Of a stretch of DNA of 34,790 nucleotides, positions 25,594 through 34,790 are shown in pieces (positions within the stretch are counted from its first letter, which is position 1; each line of letters begins with the position of its first letter). The stretch is from contig DATIYJ010000055.1 in NCBI GenBank assembly GCA_035517655.1, positions 1 through 34,790 of the forward strand. The letters run 5' to 3'. The position numbers were made by a program, and so were the translations under genes. The DNA is from Nitrospiria bacterium. Its GTDB lineage: Bacteria > Nitrospirota > Nitrospiria > JACQBZ01. A model generated the notes under the pieces. That model did not search any database. It was not told the DNA's origin and saw only the letters and a program-made list of their open reading frames with translations.

Positions 25594-26346
25594 GTGTTTC
25601 GGCGGATCATCGCCCTGCTGATCGGCGCGGGGCTGGTCCTCTCCGGCCCGGCGTGGTCCCAGGACTATGTCCTCGGGCCGCGCGACGTCCTCAACATCAC
25701 CGTGTACGACCACAAAGACCTCGAAACCAAGGTCCGCGTCAGCGAAGACGGGAAGATCACGTTTCCGCTCCTGGGCGAAATCGCGGTGTCCGGCCTCACG
25801 GTCCAACAGCTCGAGCGGAAGATCACGGCCCTGCTGGCGAACGGCTACATCATCGATCCCCACGTCGGCATCTTCGTGGAGGAGTTTCGCGTCGTGGTCT
25901 ACGTGACCGGCGAGGTCAACAAGCCGGGCTCCTACCCCTACGAAGAGGGCATGACCGCCATCAAGGCCATCAGCCTGGCCGGCGGACTGACCGAGAAGGC
26001 GGCCGACGGAAAGATCACGGTCACGCGGAAGGCGCAGGGCGCGCAGGAGACCACGCTCCAGGTCGGGCTGCACGACCTCATCCGGCCCGACGACGTTCTG
26101 CAGATTCCGGAGAAGCGGTGGGTCTACGTGACCGGCGAGGTCAAGAAGCCGGGCTCGTATCTGTACGACGATCAGATGACGATCCTGAAGGCGATCACGC
26201 TGGCCGGCGGGCTGACGGACAAGGCCGCGCCGGGCCGGACGCAGATCATCCGGAAGAAGGACGGGAAGGAGGACACGATCCGCGTCAAGATGGAGGATTC
26301 GATCCTGCCGGAAGACGTGATCGTCGTCCCCGAAAGTTTTTTTTAA
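25594..26346 (+). CDS. SLBB-domain polysaccharide export protein (Wza-like)
   Basis: The 250-residue periplasmic protein has a signal peptide MFRRIIALLIGAGLVLSGPA and a polysaccharide-export domain YVLGPRDVLNITVYDHKDL. Two tandem SLBB domains follow: VYVTGEVNKPGSYPYEEGMT and VYVTGEVKKPGSYLYDDQMT each begin a near-duplicate of about 70 residues. There is no lipobox cysteine, unlike Wza, so it is probably soluble or associated with the beta-barrel partner. The start is uncertain: GTG 25594 fits the signal peptide but lacks a strong ribosome site, while the frame is open into the preceding gene. It may be translated by coupling. Confidence 0.9.
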   Translation: MFRRIIALLIGAGLVLSGPAWSQDYVLGPRDVLNITVYDHKDLETKVRVSEDGKITFPLLGEIAVSGLTVQQLERKITALLANGYIIDPHVGIFVEEFRVVVYVTGEVNKPGSYPYEEGMTAIKAISLAGGLTEKAADGKITVTRKAQGAQETTLQVGLHDLIRPDDVLQIPEKRWVYVTGEVKKPGSYLYDDQMTILKAITLAGGLTDKAAPGRTQIIRKKDGKEDTIRVKMEDSILPEDVIVVPESFF

Positions 26347-29187: not shown

Positions 29188-31050
29188 ATGGCTCTCGTTA
29201 TCCAATTCGGAATCATCGCGTTGCTTGTCTTCGCGCCGCTGGCCTTCGGCTCGGTCGAGGTCTGGGCCCGGTCGGTCGTGGAATTGGCCGTCTTCGGCCT
29301 GGCCGGGCTCCGGTTGGTCGGGTACGGCTTCGGACGGAATACGACGGCGGGGCTGCCCGGGCCGGTCGCGGTCCTGCTCGCGTTGTTCGCGGGCTGGGCG
29401 CTGGTCCAGCTGGCCGCGCCGACCTCGCTCTACCCCCGCGGCACGCGCGGCGCGCTGGTTCTCGGGTCGGCCTACGTCGCGCTCTTCGCGCTGGTCGTCT
29501 CGACCGTCCGGACCGAAAGCGAGATAAGGCGGCTGACCCTGGCCTTGATCGTGACCGGCTTCGGCGTCGCGCTGTTCGCCATCCTCCAGAAGTACGCCTG
29601 GAACGGGAAAATCTATTGGCTCCGGACGGTGGCTGCGGGCGGCTCGCCCACCGGCCCCTTCGTCAACCGGAACCACTTCGCCGGCTACATGGAGATGCTG
29701 ATCCCTCTCGCGGTCGGCTATACCGTCTCGGAGTTCGCGGGCGCGCCGGCGATGGGCGACACGGCCTGGCGGCGCTTCGTCGACCGGCTGACCCACGAGC
29801 GGTCGAACCGCTTCGTCCTCCTGTTGTTCATGACGCTGGTGATGTCGGCCTCGCTCGTCTTAAGCCTGTCCCGGGCCGGGATCGTGAGCTTCATCGCGGC
29901 GCTCGTCCTGATCGGAGCGGTTCTCGGGCTCGGCCGGACCGCGAAGCGGTGGGCCCTGCTGCCGGTGGCGCTGGCCGCGCTGCTTTTGATCTCGCTCGCC
30001 TGGTTCGGCCTGGGGCCGCTCATCGACCGCTACCGGACCCTCATGGATCTTCCCGACGACCGGTCGATGACGGGACGGGTCGCGGTCTGGAAGGACGCCG
30101 TGAAGATCGCGGAGGACCATCCTTACATGGGATCCGGCCCCGGGACCTTCGGGGCGGTCTTCCCGGAATACAAGACCGTCCCGGACCCGGTCTTCTACGA
30201 GCACGCGCACAACGACTACGTCCAGCTGCTGGCCGAGACGGGGACGGTGGGCTTCGGCCTGGGCCTCGGGACGCTCGGGTTCCTCGGAGGCTTTCTCCTC
30301 GCCGGCGGGCGCGCGCGCCGGAACCCCCGGGCGAGGGCCCTGCTGCTGGGCGTCGCGACCGGGATGGCCGCGATCCTGATCCACGGGCTGAGCGATTTTA
30401 ATTTCCATATCCCGGCCAACGCGGCGCTGTTCGCGGTCCTGTCGGGGCTGGCCTGGAATCTCGCCCGGCCGGAGCGCCCGGAGCCGGCGACCGCGCCGGC
30501 GTCCCGAGGGCGGCGCCCGGCCGCGGCCGTCGCGGGGCTGCTCGCGGTCGGCCTCTTGATCGAGCAGACGACGGCCGCGCTGGCGGCCGACCGGAAATAC
30601 CGTTGCGGTTTGGAGCTGGAGAAGGCGGGAAAGCTCGATCCGGCCGCGGAGGATTACCGCCGGGCGATCGGCTGGGACCCGTCCCATCCGCTGTACCACA
30701 TGGCCCTGGGCGGGCTTTACGAGCGGCTCTATGCGGGGGGCGACGCGTCGGTCCTTCCGGCGGCCCGCTCCGAGTTCGAGCGCGCCGCCGCGCTGGGCCC
30801 CACGATGGCCGAGCCTCGCCTGAACCTGGGCTGGATCCGCGCGCAGACGGGGGAGGCGGACGCCGCGACGGAGGAGTTCGAACGGGTCCTGACGCTGGAC
30901 CCCACGAACCCGCTCTATCAGCACTACGTCGGGCTGTGGTTCGCCGCGACCGGCCGGGCGGACCGGGCGCTTCAACTGGCCCGGCGGCTTCGCGAGAACC
31001 GGCAGGACGGGATGGCGGCCGAGATTGAGGAGAGGCTGAAGAAGACGTAA
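29188..31050 (+). CDS. O-antigen ligase / Wzy-type membrane protein with TPR tail
   Basis: The 620-residue protein has about 11-12 hydrophobic segments (roughly 5-450) and a large periplasmic loop with TGRVAVWKDAVKI, GSGPGTFGAVFPEY and HAHNDYVQLLAETG. That loop is the Wzy_C/WaaL signature around a conserved His. The C-terminal part (about 470-620) contains at least two TPR-like repeats (SEFERAAALGPTMAEPRLNLGW, EEFERVLTLDPTNPLYQHYVG). It would polymerise or ligate the exported glycan. GAGGCGGGC precedes ATG 29188. Its TAA overlaps the asnB ATG by one base (TAATG). Confidence 0.88.
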   Translation: MALVIQFGIIALLVFAPLAFGSVEVWARSVVELAVFGLAGLRLVGYGFGRNTTAGLPGPVAVLLALFAGWALVQLAAPTSLYPRGTRGALVLGSAYVALFALVVSTVRTESEIRRLTLALIVTGFGVALFAILQKYAWNGKIYWLRTVAAGGSPTGPFVNRNHFAGYMEMLIPLAVGYTVSEFAGAPAMGDTAWRRFVDRLTHERSNRFVLLLFMTLVMSASLVLSLSRAGIVSFIAALVLIGAVLGLGRTAKRWALLPVALAALLLISLAWFGLGPLIDRYRTLMDLPDDRSMTGRVAVWKDAVKIAEDHPYMGSGPGTFGAVFPEYKTVPDPVFYEHAHNDYVQLLAETGTVGFGLGLGTLGFLGGFLLAGGRARRNPRARALLLGVATGMAAILIHGLSDFNFHIPANAALFAVLSGLAWNLARPERPEPATAPASRGRRPAAAVAGLLAVGLLIEQTTAALAADRKYRCGLELEKAGKLDPAAEDYRRAIGWDPSHPLYHMALGGLYERLYAGGDASVLPAARSEFERAAALGPTMAEPRLNLGWIRAQTGEADAATEEFERVLTLDPTNPLYQHYVGLWFAATGRADRALQLARRLRENRQDGMAAEIEERLKKT

Positions 31051-32966
31051 TGTGCGGAATAGCCGGTATTCTAAAATTCGGTAGTCCCACGGCGGCCGAA
31101 GACCTCGCGGCCGTCCGGCGGATGATGAACGCCCAGATCCGCCGCGGGCCGGACGGGGAGGGGCTGTTCCGCGACGAACGGGTCGTCCTCGGGCACCGGC
31201 GGCTTTCGATCATCGACCGCTCCGACGCCGGCCGCCAGCCGATGTCGAACGAGATCTGCGTCGAGTGCGGGCGGGGCCGCGGAAGCGTCTGGGTGACCTA
31301 CAACGGCGAGATCTATAATTTTCAGGAGCTCCGGGATGAATTGATGAACCGCGGGCATCTGTTCCGCTCGAAAACGGACACGGAGGCGCTGGTCCACGGC
31401 TACGCGCAGTGGGGCATCGACGGCCTGCTCGCGCGGCTCCGCGGCATGTTCGCCTTCGCGCTCTACGAAGCCTCCAACCTCCAACCTCACGCCTCACGCC
31501 TCTTTTTAGCCAGAGACCGTTTCGGGATCAAGCCGCTTTATTATCATCGCGATCGCGAGCGGCTGATCTTCGCCTCCGAAGTCCGGGCCCTCATGAAAAG
31601 CCGGATGGTCCCGGACGAGAAGAACGTCGAGGCCCTGGTCCGCTTCCTTCAGCTCGGGTCCGTGCCGGCGCCGCTGACGACGGTCAAGGATGTCCTGTCC
31701 GTTCCGGCCGGACATTACCTCGCGGTCGCCGACGACCGCGAGGAGCTGAAACCGTACTGGGTTCTTTCCACGCATCTTCGCCGTCCTCCGGCCTCCAACC
31801 TCCAGCCTTCGAACGTTCCGATCTCGACCACCCGCTCGCTTCTCGAAGATTCCGTCCGCCGTCACCTCGTCGGCGACGTGCCGCTCGGGCTGTTTTTAAG
31901 CGGCGGGATCGATTCGTCCTCGATCGCCGCGCTGGCCGCGCGCTTCCATTACCGGCCGCTCGCCACGCTCTCGGTCGTTTTCGACGAACGGGACTACGAC
32001 GAGGCCGGCTACGCCCGTCTCGTCGCGGAGCGATACGGGACGGACCACCGGGAAGTGCGGCTTCGCGCCGGGGACTTTCACGGCGAGCTCCCCCGGATCT
32101 TCGACGCGATGGACCAGCCGACCATCGACGGCGTCAACACCTACTTCGTGTCGAAGGCCGCCAAGGAAGCCGGACTGACCGTCGTGCTCTCCGGGACGGG
32201 AGGCGACGAGGTCTTTCTCGGCTACGACCATTTCAGGAAGACCGCGACGCTGGAGCGGACGCGCCGCTTTCTTGGCGTCCTTCCGCTCCGTGCGCGGAGA
32301 ACGTTGATCCGCGCGGCGATCCGCGCCGGGCTGCCGTCGAAGGCCTCCGGACGGGAGAAACTGACTTATCTGGACGCGCCGTCCGACGGGAACCTGTACC
32401 TCCTCTTCCGCGGCCTCTTCGCCCCGCGCCGGATTCAGGATCTGCTTGGGATAAGCGAAGCGGAGCTGGGGCCGTACCTTTCTCAGCCTCCAACCTCCAC
32501 CCTCAAGCCTCCGACGCCCACATCGCTTCTCGCTTCCTTCGCCCTCTTCGAGTTCGGCCATTATCTCCAGAACCAATTGCTCAAGGACATCGACATCATG
32601 AGCATGGCCCATTCCATCGAGACCCGCGTGCCGTTTCTGGATCACCGGCTGGTGGAATACGTGGCGGGCCTTCCCGACAGGGTGAAGCTCCGGAGAGGCG
32701 TCAACAAGCCGCTTCTCGTCAAAGCGCTCGGCGCGGACCTTCCCCGGGAAGTCTGGAAGCGTCCCAAGATGGGATTCACCTTTCCGTTCGGGGAGTGGAT
32801 GAAAGAGCGGGCGGACGAGTTGCAAGCGAGAAGCCTCGAGCAGAAAATTTTCGACCGGCGGGCCGTGGAGTGCGTTTGGGATGAATTCAAGAAGGGCCGG
32901 GCGCATTGGTCGAGGCCGTGGGCGCTGGTGACGAGTCAAACCTTCATGACGCGAAGGAACGATTAG
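31050..32966 (+). CDS. asnB: Asparagine synthetase, glutamine-hydrolysing
   Basis: The 638-residue protein has the class-II amidotransferase N-terminus with nucleophile C2 (MCGIAGILKFG), WVTYNGEIYN and ARDRFGIKPLYY. The synthetase domain carries the pyrophosphate loop LFLSGGIDSSS (about 282-291) and VLSGTGGDEVFLGY. Polysaccharide clusters often carry such AsnB paralogues to amidate sugars. Three segments look like in-frame insertions translated from a DNA repeat: ASNLQPHAS (about 141-149), PPASNLQPSN (about 246-255) and QPPTSTLKPPTP (about 479-490). The C-terminal end, ALVTSQTFMTRRND, differs from two downstream remnants of asnB tails, so the original end may have been replaced. Confidence 0.94.
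   Translation: MCGIAGILKFGSPTAAEDLAAVRRMMNAQIRRGPDGEGLFRDERVVLGHRRLSIIDRSDAGRQPMSNEICVECGRGRGSVWVTYNGEIYNFQELRDELMNRGHLFRSKTDTEALVHGYAQWGIDGLLARLRGMFAFALYEASNLQPHASRLFLARDRFGIKPLYYHRDRERLIFASEVRALMKSRMVPDEKNVEALVRFLQLGSVPAPLTTVKDVLSVPAGHYLAVADDREELKPYWVLSTHLRRPPASNLQPSNVPISTTRSLLEDSVRRHLVGDVPLGLFLSGGIDSSSIAALAARFHYRPLATLSVVFDERDYDEAGYARLVAERYGTDHREVRLRAGDFHGELPRIFDAMDQPTIDGVNTYFVSKAAKEAGLTVVLSGTGGDEVFLGYDHFRKTATLERTRRFLGVLPLRARRTLIRAAIRAGLPSKASGREKLTYLDAPSDGNLYLLFRGLFAPRRIQDLLGISEAELGPYLSQPPTSTLKPPTPTSLLASFALFEFGHYLQNQLLKDIDIMSMAHSIETRVPFLDHRLVEYVAGLPDRVKLRRGVNKPLLVKALGADLPREVWKRPKMGFTFPFGEWMKERADELQARSLEQKIFDRRAVECVWDEFKKGRAHWSRPWALVTSQTFMTRRND
31470..31483 (+). repeat. Dispersed repeat in asnB, copy 1
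   Basis: GCCTCCAACCTCCA, followed by ACCTCACGCCTCACGCCTC, read as Ala-Ser-Asn-Leu-Gln-Pro. It interrupts the otherwise well-conserved segment between FAFALYE and RLFLARDRFG. Confidence 0.75.
31791..31804 (+). repeat. Dispersed repeat in asnB, copy 2
   Basis: The same 14-mer GCCTCCAACCTCCA, again read as Ala-Ser-Asn-Leu-Gln, in the loop before the synthetase domain. Confidence 0.75.
32486..32513 (+). repeat. Dispersed repeat in asnB, copy 3 (other reading frame)
   Basis: The same 14-mer GCCTCCAACCTCCA followed by CCCTCAAGCCTCCG, but read one frame over (Pro-Pro-Thr-Ser-Thr-Leu-Lys-Pro-Pro). Its reverse complement matches 29164-29183. Confidence 0.75.
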
Positions 32967-32969
32967 CCC

Positions 32970-33455
32970 ATGTTGTACGAAGATGTCTTCCGAGCGCTTG
33001 CCGAAAAGAAGATTGACTACGTGGTGGTGGGCGGCGTGGCCTTGGTCCTGCACGGCGTCGTCCGTTTGACGGGCGACCTCGACCTCTTCGTGAGGCTCGA
33101 GGAGGCCAACGTTCTGAAATTTGTCGCGGCCATGAAGGAGCTTGGATACAAGCCCAAGGTTCCCGTGAAGGCCGAGGATTTGGCCGACGCGGCTCGGAGG
33201 CGCCGGTGGCGGACCGAAAAGGGGATGCGGGTCCTCAGCTTTTATAACCCGGCGAAGCCGATGCAATTGGTCGACGTGTTCATCGACGAGCCGATTCCCT
33301 ATTCGGAAGCCCGCGAAGGAAGGAAAGCGTTCGAGGCGGCCGGAATACGGATTCCGACGGTGTCGGTCGAGCATCTGAAAGCGTTGAAACGGATCTCGGG
33401 ACGGCCGCAGGACCTGGCCGACATCGAGGCCCTGGAGGCGATCGAGGATGACTGA
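32970..33455 (+). CDS. Nucleotidyltransferase-like protein (DUF6036/AbiEii-like)
   Basis: The 161-residue protein has the minimal nucleotidyltransferase signature VVGGVALVLHGVVRLTGDLDLFV (GG near residue 22, acidic D-L-D near 37-39), then QLVDVFIDEP as a third acidic strand, and a C-terminal helical part SVEHLKALKRISGRPQDLADIEALE. Similar proteins belong to the AbiEii/DUF6036 group, several of which are toxin or antitoxin partners. It starts four bases after the asnB stop and overlaps the next gene by eight bases, forming a two-gene module. Confidence 0.8.
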   Translation: MLYEDVFRALAEKKIDYVVVGGVALVLHGVVRLTGDLDLFVRLEEANVLKFVAAMKELGYKPKVPVKAEDLADAARRRRWRTEKGMRVLSFYNPAKPMQLVDVFIDEPIPYSEAREGRKAFEAAGIRIPTVSVEHLKALKRISGRPQDLADIEALEAIEDD

Positions 33456-33666
33456 CATCAATCAAGGCGGCCGGACCGCCGGCGGGGGGAAGCCGTTTGC
33501 CCATCGTCTCTCGCGCGAGGCTCTCCGGCAGTTCAAGGACGCGTCCGCCGAAGCGAAGCTGCGCTGGCTGGAGGAGGCCGCGGCCTTCATCGACCGCTTT
33601 GTGAGCGAGGAGAAGCGCGAGCGGTGGAGACGGTTTGTGGAGAAGAATGAAAAACGCAAGGGATAG
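33448..33666 (+). CDS. Small partner protein of the nucleotidyltransferase
   Basis: The 72-residue, highly charged helical protein (SREALRQFKDASAEAKLRWL, then EEAAAFIDRFVSEEKRERW) overlaps the nucleotidyltransferase gene by eight bases. I recall similar small proteins next to DUF6036 genes; a toxin-antitoxin-type pairing is plausible but not shown. It has no membrane segment. Confidence 0.7.
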   Translation: MTDINQGGRTAGGGKPFAHRLSREALRQFKDASAEAKLRWLEEAAAFIDRFVSEEKRERWRRFVEKNEKRKG

Positions 33667-33689
33667 CGCCTGTCCGTCGCGGGCGGAAC

Positions 33690-33741
33690 GCATTGGTCGA
33701 GACCGTGGGCGATGGTCGTCGCGGCGCATTTCGATCGGGTG
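33690..33741 (+). pseudogene. Remnant of an asnB 3' end (short)
   Basis: This stretch encodes AHWSRPWAMVVAAHFDR in frame, matching the last residues of the longer remnant (AHWSRPWATLVAAHFDR) and the asnB tail (AHWSRPWALV). At DNA level about 43 of 50 bases match the remnant at 34549-34598. It lacks a start and is not part of any gene. It lies just after the nucleotidyltransferase module. Confidence 0.8.
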
Positions 33742-33756
33742 AGAATCTATTCGATG

Positions 33757-34104
33757 CTAACGTTTAATAAATCGGTGCCGCTTCTCTTCGAGGAGGATCA
33801 GTGCGCCGGTCAACTCATCGAGGCGGGTGGCGGTCAGAAGATGTTTAAGGCGGGGTTCGTATCGCAGCGGAGTATTGGGCCGGATCGTGGAGATAATGAT
33901 CCCGCCGCAACGAGCCGGGTTAAACGCGCGAAAGCCTTTGTCGGTCGTGAAGATGACCCGCTTTTCCCGACAGGCGGTGCGATAGATTTCGGAATCTTGA
34001 ATTCCGAAACGGTTCAGTTCTTTAATATCCACAACGTCGTGGCCCAGGTTTCGGAGCATTTGGACGGTTGTGGGCGAGACACACTCGTCGATCAAAAAAC
34101 GCAC
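33757..34104 (-). CDS. DUF5615 PIN-like toxin
   Basis: The 115-residue protein MRFLIDECVSPTTVQMLRNL... has the acidic residues and order of DUF5615 (Mut7-C/PIN-like) proteins: LIDECV, VDIKELN, IYRTACREKRVIFTTDKGF. These are putative ribonuclease toxins paired with DUF433 antitoxins. It starts with GTG at 34104, nine bases after the antitoxin stop, in an operon with it. Confidence 0.88.
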   Translation of the reverse strand: MRFLIDECVSPTTVQMLRNLGHDVVDIKELNRFGIQDSEIYRTACREKRVIFTTDKGFRAFNPARCGGIIISTIRPNTPLRYEPRLKHLLTATRLDELTGALILLEEKRHRFIKR

Positions 34105-34113
34105 GCCGGGGCC

Positions 34114-34359
34114 TTATCGTTGAAGAGCGTTCGAGCCGTAGCGGAGAGCTTCGTTGATATCTTCCGGTGTGAGATGGGGAAACCGGTCGAGGATGTCTTT
34201 GATCGAGTAGCCGTCGGCCAGGTAATCAAAGATCAGAGAGACGGGGATACGCGTGCCCTTGATGGTCGGTTGGCCGTGCATGATGCTCTTATCACGAACG
34301 ATCCTCGCAAAGGTCCCGGTCTCGCCGTTTTTTTTGGGAGAGGCGGCTGTTTTGGACAT
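34114..34359 (-). CDS. DUF433 antitoxin
   Basis: The 81-residue protein contains the DUF433 core IMHGQPTIKGTRIPVSLIFD, YLADGYSIKDILDRFPHLT and EDINEALRYG, a small helix-turn-helix-like fold. It precedes and presumably neutralises the DUF5615 toxin and may autoregulate the operon. AAAGGAG (34369-34375) lies nine bases before the ATG. Confidence 0.9.
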   Translation of the reverse strand: MSKTAASPKKNGETGTFARIVRDKSIMHGQPTIKGTRIPVSLIFDYLADGYSIKDILDRFPHLTPEDINEALRYGSNALQR

Positions 34360-34382
34360 GAATAGGATCTCCTTTGGTTTTC

Positions 34383-34411
34383 ATTGTAAGGTGAAGAACC
34401 CCGAATGTCAA
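34383..34411 (-). promoter_or_regulatory. Promoter of the DUF433-DUF5615 operon
   Basis: Minus-strand TTGACA (34406-34411), 17 bases, TACAAT (34383-34388): close to the sigma-70 consensus and 23 bases before the antitoxin ATG. The operon thus carries its own strong promoter, as expected for a transferable module. Confidence 0.75.
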
Positions 34412-34436
34412 CGGCGGCGGTCTTCTCTGTTTGACC

Positions 34437-34597
34437 CTTGGATGCGAAAGCAGGCGGACGAATTGCAAGCGGGAAGCCTTGAGGGGAAAATGTTCGACCG
34501 GAAAGCGGTCGAGACCGTTTGGGATGAATTTATGAAAGGCCGGGCGCATTGGTCGAGGCCGTGGGCCACGCTCGTGGCGGCGCATTTTGATCGATGA
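34437..34597 (+). pseudogene. Remnant of an asnB 3' end (long)
   Basis: In frame this encodes WMRKQADELQAGSLEGKMFD then RKAVETVWDEFMKGRAHWSR and PWATLVAAHFDR-stop, homologous to AsnB residues about 583-626 (WMKERADELQARSLEQKIFD...). A 29-base block (32895-32923 and 34538-34566) is identical. There is no upstream asnB sequence, so it is a truncated duplicate that lies beyond the toxin-antitoxin operon. Confidence 0.88.
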
Positions 34598-34611
34598 ACT
34601 GAGTGAATATT

Positions 34612-34790
34612 ATGAACACGGTCAAGAGAATTATAAAAAAAGCTTTTGGACTTAACCCTTCTCCAAAGGATTGTTTTCTTTCTTACCATTACCAACGCCA
34701 CAACCAGAGAAGGCAAGAACATCTTGCCAGTTTGGGATTAAATATTCAGGGCGCTACGGTGCTTGAAGCTGGAGCAGGCATCGGAGATCA
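34612..34790 (+). CDS. SAM-dependent methyltransferase, N-terminal part (cut by window end)
   Basis: The frame runs off the window. The visible 59 residues begin MNTVKRIIKKAFGLNPSPKD and include SYHYQRHNQRRQEHLASLGL and VLEAGAGIGD, the glycine-rich motif I of class-I methyltransferases. Codon use is clearly AT-richer than the genes upstream (AATTATAAAAAAAGC, TTTTGG), suggesting recent acquisition, as is common for glycan-modifying genes. No strong ribosome binding site precedes ATG 34612. Confidence 0.8.
   Translation, partial: MNTVKRIIKKAFGLNPSPKDCFLSYHYQRHNQRRQEHLASLGLNIQGATVLEAGAGIGD

Follow-up and report, generated by a model that had tools for sequence, protein, structure and literature searches.

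Toxin–antitoxin-like modules between divergent gene-end copies behind asnB and other conserved genes of Nitrospiria

The window analysed here is a stretch of 34,790 nt from a Nitrospiria bacterium (assembly GCA_035517655.1, contig DATIYJ010000055.1, here C55; the genome comprises 71 contigs and 2.65 Mb). Near its end an intact asnB-type amidotransferase gene is followed by two small toxin–antitoxin-like modules, each with a diverged repeat of the asnB 3′ end behind it. Judging from sequence comparisons, the two modules probably came to lie behind asnB by two successive homology-anchored insertions. The arrangement belongs to a recurring pattern in which small, mostly toxin–antitoxin-like modules stand beside conserved genes with a divergent gene-end copy on the far side. 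While the structure of the locus can be read directly, the process is supported by the comparison of sequences at the sat gene of another species of the genus, and we infer that it applies to asnB as well, in a certain order of events and with an illegitimate second junction. Toxin–antitoxin modules are plainly mobile, and to our knowledge small modules of this sort carry no recognisable transfer genes. How horizontally acquired toxin–antitoxin systems become fixed is not yet understood, according to an excerpt from a review (PMC2654758).

The host gene asnB (31050..32966, plus strand) encodes an intact protein of 638 aa with the domains PF00733 and PF13537 and a TIGR01536 score of 440.6 bits (cut-off 267.1), and it is preceded by exopolysaccharide genes. 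Directly behind its stop codon starts the gene of a toxin-like nucleotidyltransferase (NTase, 32970..33455, plus strand), which matches PF19502 (DUF6036), PF08843 (AbiEii) and PF09970 (DUF2204) with 28.5, 25.5 and 22.8 bits, each above its own Pfam cut-off. It overlaps with the gene of a 72-aa partner (33448..33666, plus strand), for which no Pfam family scored above cut-off and whose homologues are found behind NTase homologues in L138 (G005), L139 (G006), L140 (G011) and other loci (L stands for loci and G for genomes throughout). The second module lies on the minus strand and consists of a toxin-like, PIN-like DUF5615 gene (33757..34104, PF18480, 68.3 bits) and an antitoxin-like DUF433 gene (34114..34359, PF04255, 84.0 bits), the latter family being presumably COG2442. 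Of the 29 further DUF5615 loci that were read, 28 have a DUF433 match next to DUF5615. Both pairs are toxin–antitoxin-like by their families (DUF433/DUF5615 and AbiEii/DUF6036-type NTase); a PADLOC search gave no match for this cargo, and no noteworthy PDB match was obtained for the NTase.

The three tail copies are the intact 3′ end of asnB (copy A, 32796..32923 for the part homologous to C), a short remnant between the two modules (copy B, 33689..33737) and a longer remnant behind the second one (copy C, 34437..34597), all on the plus strand, so that the order is A, NTase pair, B, DUF5615/DUF433, C. In DNA alignments A (32796-32923) and C (34439-34566) are 84.4% identical over 128 bp with a score of 156, the maximum in 300 shuffles being 28. 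B (33689-33737) and C (34545-34593) share 88% over 49 bp (score 68 vs 23 in shuffles) and A and B 86% over 36 bp (47 vs 24), and the homology among the three tails is thus far beyond chance. A genome-wide pattern search with the tail core, allowing up to 3 mismatches, returned the A, B and C sites at 0 mismatches and one further site at 3. These alignments and coordinates bear out the first-pass annotation, which had described three asnB 3′ ends with the NTase pair between the first and second and DUF433/DUF5615 between the second and third. Its further observations hold as well: the final 29 columns of the A–C alignment are identical, and both remnants end in ...AAHFDR, whereas intact AsnB reads ...LVTSQTFMTRRND there. 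Copy C has its own stop codon at 34595-34597 and B has none at the corresponding place.

Arrival of the modules by recombination at the asnB 3′ end, also proposed in that annotation, is the best fit to these data; it is seen more directly at sat and gltD, and at asnB itself we infer it. In this model the resident asnB would have recombined twice with incoming foreign DNA in which the 3′ part of a related asnB allele was followed by a module. One exchange would lie within the shared gene and the other junction, being illegitimate, inside the resident tail. The outcome would be a complete gene with a donor 3′ end, a module behind it and the displaced resident tail kept as a remnant. Copy C would then be the native and oldest end, B the asnB end present after the arrival of DUF433/DUF5615, and A the end brought in with the NTase pair, although the place of C in the order of events is part of the model.

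The clearest case is the ATP-sulfurylase gene sat in genome G002 from the genus of the window (the names sat, gltD and hsdM are our assignments from Pfam domains and general knowledge). Here sat is followed by DUF433/DUF5615 and then by a 35-bp remnant of the sat tail. From nt 745 behind sat the sequence of G002 matches that of G001, another species of the same genus, from nt 11 behind its sat (753 bp, 88%); the sat locus of G001 is a cargo-free site and hence the empty site for G002. In G004 a partial match to the sequence beyond the remnant begins about 820 nt behind its own sat (675 bp, 90%), and therefore something else lies between sat and the matching stretch in this genome. Immediately downstream of sat, G002 is 94% identical to G005, a genome of another genus, over the whole 387 bp available. 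The sat gene of G002 is itself a mosaic: informative sites favour G001 over G005 by 81:27 to the left of column 486 and G005 over G001 by 82:31 to its right, with a maximum chi-square of 50.0 for the breakpoint that was reached by 0 of 5000 shuffles. Most simply, the 3′ part of a donor sat and the cargo would have arrived jointly in G002 by homologous exchange inside the gene, leaving the native tail behind.

We searched NTase and DUF5615 in 265 genomes, all of the window's class, and took the 30 best loci each with those of the window included. Of the 57 loci that could be tested (E 1e-4, flanks of 1 kb), 23 have direct repeats that span the module. The control figures are 4 of 276 random 600-bp intervals from other genomes and 0 of 165 intervals taken elsewhere in the window and in genomes of its class. 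With looser settings repeats are seen at 26 of 57 loci, and 171 pairings of flanks from different loci give 7 matches, six of them between loci that share their gltD end or their module. Spanning repeats are also present at 11 of 29 loci of a third module, in which DUF4258 is paired with an MqsA-like zinc finger (the latter assigned below the Pfam cut-off), which gives 34 of 86 loci for the three cargo families together, two of the 34 being those of the window. Gene ends account for 24 of the 34 repeats, namely 14 at gltD, 2 at the window asnB and 8 at other genes: the UvrA-like gene (L190), sat (L195), PRA-PH (L159), HEAT (L301), a 112-aa open reading frame (ORF; L302), the 5′ end of hsdM (L293) and unannotated ORFs (L141, L146). 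Their length ranges from 27 to 196 bp and varies widely between hosts. The remaining 10 (L181, L182, L185, L192, L194, L292, L297, L298, L299, L304) are palindromic repeats, paralogues or unresolved cases and not clear gene ends, and they enter only the count of 34 in 86. Two of them, L181 and L182, have palindromic repeats of about 160 bp on either side of DUF433/DUF5615, which look like a separate repeat family. In L293 a DUF4258 module beside hsdM is flanked by a copy of the hsdM 5′ end, and thus the pattern extends beyond 3′ ends. NTase pairs of two genomes of the same family (G005 and G006) also lie between genes that we take to be argF-like and argG-like in L138 and L139, in L139 only few bases from the next gene; no repeat or tail remnant was detected at either locus.

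The 3′ end of gltD is the richest of these sites. In a sample of 70 loci that was chosen to include carriers, 16 of the 25 loci that have a downstream NTase show a second gltD tail, as do 3 of the 45 that have no NTase there (Fisher p 5e-7), where some genomes counted as cargo-free, here and in the nearest-relative comparison below, carry a partner ORF and are classed as carriers in the later analyses. The three exceptions have a solo partner ORF (L199, L218) or DUF433 with a DUF5615-like ORF (L253). A search with the gltD tail gave more than one match in 31 of 265 genomes, some of the second matches being another long gltD copy (e.g. in G076, G096 and G135). Between gltD and the remnant we found at least six kinds of cargo, including the NTase pair, a second NTase type with partner, DUF433/DUF5615, DUF5615 with partner, DUF4258/zinc finger, 248-aa lipoprotein-like ORFs and solo partners, and the cargo is therefore mostly, not exclusively, toxin–antitoxin-like. 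G105 (L234) parallels the window in having two consecutive cargo units; two tails are clear there, and a third is weak at best. The remnant is nearer to the intact tail of another genome than to its own in 21 of 26 cases (20 of 25 if a place fetched twice is counted once), and five gltD pairs that are 93–97% identical across the block that aligns (L197, L239, L253, L275, L277) show no homology in the 220 nt past the stop codon. Together, the foreign-closest remnants and the lack of shared sequence past the stop are evidence against recent in-place copying. In some loci the remnant side also looks native by downstream synteny (e.g. L240 vs L255). Across unrelated cargos, 25 of 30 remnants have their left edge 80–105 nt upstream of the last base of the stop codon, which could reflect a preferred junction or the exchange of cargo at an inherited junction.

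Differences between intact tail and remnant favour third codon positions (129/92/301 by position), and a similar bias could arise if the end was duplicated in place and one of the copies stayed under constraint. Near-identical gltD tails in distant genomes, which would point to recent exchange, were found in 0 of 3086 pairs, the same as for a control window. The identity of gltD tails hardly tracks relatedness, which fits exchange as well as a fast-evolving end, and we did not use it as proof. A small partner family with a WLEEA motif occurs with two NTase types, with DUF5615 or solo (L163, L282, L208, L270, L199, L218), and it may be an antitoxin that changes toxins.

Besides G263 (L190), 5 of 20 genomes (G253, G257, G259, G266, G267) carry extra tail pieces of a gene that we take to be UvrA-like, for which Pfam gives only ABC_tran and AAA domains. 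In G263 and G266 the remnant is nearer to tails of other genomes than to its own, and for G253 the comparison set holds no intact copy. The 3′ ends of gltD and of this gene are the hotspots that can be shown. The idea of the first-pass annotation that the asnB tail itself is a hotspot was not borne out: the tail protein has matches in 4 of 269 genomes of the class, with more than one copy only in the window genome, and as A, B and C occur together in this genome only (1 of 269) an asnB hotspot is not established. The search for other cargo between asnB tails, which that annotation had suggested, gave none among the 269 genomes and the loci scanned, 13 viral loci being set aside. The scan for tail copies used plus-strand matches with at least 300 nt downstream and left out minus-strand loci; outside the window it returned neighbouring full-length asnB-like genes in six distant loci (L041, L058, L067, L083, L097, L098), matches on the other strand (L077, L096) and short DNA matches in two loci (L108, L110). 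The stretch 32970-34602 has no match in plasmids. In the collections searched no close relative of the window asnB was found, the nearest being from a Terriglobia genome (L034, 52%) and from G037 (48%). The two nearest relatives are fused in frame to what is presumably a glycosyltransferase-like domain (L034 8001-11198, L005 349-3390), unlike the gene of the window.

Several results weigh against successive homology-anchored insertion. Five control sat triads gave chi-square values of 1.6–16.8, three of them with p values of 0.022, 0.018 and 0.002, and recombination in sat is therefore wider than G002, though less sharp. In the gltD mosaic test, genomes with cargo did not differ from those without it (21 vs 38, p 0.74), and thus a joint replacement of 3′ part and cargo is supported at one gene only. 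At asnB there is no GC change point at third codon positions (GC3; 964 of 2000 shuffles reach the observed value), and no relative in the collections searched has an asnB with a matching tail. Five of the 26 gltD remnants are closest to the tail of their own locus (L234, L239, L270, L271, L275), the UvrA-like remnant of G259 is closest to its own tail by a hair and that of G267 ties. Compared with the nearest cargo-free relative, as classed above, the intact gltD tail is nearer in 14 of 19 cases and the remnant in 4, with one tie; since this is also expected if the remnant decays, it is silent on which copy is native. At gltD the junction varies too little to make random illegitimate joining likely, and 52 of the 86 module loci have no detected repeat.

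Part of these results can be turned into an argument for a strict form of insertion with long target duplication, in which the target is copied in place when the module enters and the copies then diverge. Its outward form, a small module between partial gene-end copies of variable length (27–196 bp), is the same, the five gltD loci with their own tail closest agree with it, and in L234 the copies reach about 190 nt past the stop codon. As the remnants of most gltD loci and of two UvrA-like loci (G263 and G266, not G259 and G267) are nearer to foreign tails, and the five young gltD pairs share nothing past the stop and sat of G002 is a mosaic, we regard it as rather unlikely. Some phages restore the end of their target gene on integration, and gene 3′ ends might likewise serve as attachment sites for integrase-less elements that are moved in trans and restore the gene end. 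The narrow zone of the gltD remnant edge in spite of unrelated cargos would suit such site-specific integration. Against it, the cargo ORFs read between tails (only some of which were profile-scanned) include none that was recognised as a recombinase, the asnB remnants B and C begin at different places, and the lengths of the repeats differ widely between hosts, so that the odds appear clearly poor.

We give even less weight to two further explanations. Tandem asnB paralogues could have decayed around the modules, as the first-pass annotation had considered, or the tails could be conserved motifs of separate genes. Full-length asnB-like neighbours do exist, in the six distant loci only, while the window holds only 3′ ends, and the ORF that covers tail C begins within DUF433 and has no Pfam match; this explanation finds little support and is very improbable. 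An assembly artefact would come to mind because the locus lies less than 2 kb from a contig end in a metagenome-assembled genome (the loci fetched around the end of the window stop at 34790, and the locus therefore adjoins the contig end). As the copies differ by 12–16% and the same architecture is present inside a 4.59-Mb contig (L253), such an artefact is barely credible.

Returning to homology-anchored insertion, the asnB findings together with the recurrence behind other genes suggest that modules move between genomes in an integrase-free manner. More tentatively, and with the balance still somewhat against it, this might be a widespread route in which modules ride on the 3′ ends of conserved genes as homology arms, and in which some ends such as that of gltD are exchange sites with a preferred junction that trade unrelated modules. 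If true, a single recombination event would swap the gene end, install the module and keep the host gene working. This would account for modules directly behind conserved genes, and the displaced tail would be a footprint for counting past insertions.

Some other features of the window may be mentioned. The gene behind C (34603-34790) is AT-rich with a GC of 0.42 and a GC3 of 0.37, the other genes compared having a GC3 of 0.64–0.92. Within asnB there are three in-frame stretches of CCTCCAA heptamer-type repeats (31471-31500, 31792-31804 and 32487-32512). Exact 13-base matches to this repeat are found elsewhere in the genome four times and only on contig C67, and at one mismatch the motif is no commoner in the genome than its reversed control (14 vs 16). 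A direct repeat of 108 bp with 80% identity (25896-26003 and 26121-26228) in a polysaccharide export-type gene probably represents duplicated domains.

Comparable systems have been described from other kinds of elements. The DUF433/PIN pairs are regarded as VapBC-type in PMC3834315, and with a DUF433 gene followed by that of PIN-like DUF5615 the second module of the window would be of this kind, its toxicity being predicted. Integron gene cassettes with toxin–antitoxin pairs, as outlined in the excerpt of PMC2654758, share the small units between repeats, but the repeats found here are coding gene ends that differ with the host gene and not attC sites. Of the features of integrase-dependent islands, no recombinase was recognised in the ORFs read between tails, and the edge is nearly constant at gltD and not at asnB. 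Among the matches listed (titles and abstract starts of open-licence papers) no description of such gene-end insertion was found for toxin–antitoxin modules. The product of homology-facilitated illegitimate recombination, as far as the excerpt of PMC3240628 describes it, fits the sat and asnB loci, and the matches listed, as far as their text was available, gave no link of this process with toxin–antitoxin modules or gene-tail remnants. Its homologous junction is seen at one locus, sat in G002, and neither in the gltD mosaic test nor in the GC3 of asnB, and the edges of its second junction vary between hosts, yet 25 of 30 fall into the same narrow zone at gltD. Insertion with long target duplication has been described for restriction–modification genes (Nobusato et al. 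2000, as described in PMC1643837 and PMC3031569), and has in common with our loci small selfish-type genes, a target stretch on both sides and long, variable repeats. As in that process, the module stands between direct copies far longer than the target duplications of transposons (34 of 86 loci, those of the window among them), and a close relative has an empty site (sat, G001 vs G002). The gltD remnants, foreign-closest in 21 of 26, and the sat mosaic do not agree with one resident target copied in place, and because the copies look heterologous, homology-facilitated illegitimate recombination fits better than long target duplication. We class the pattern as a variant of such insertion: what enters is mostly toxin–antitoxin-like pairs, gene ends often serve as the target, and the copies appear to derive from different alleles and not from copying in place.

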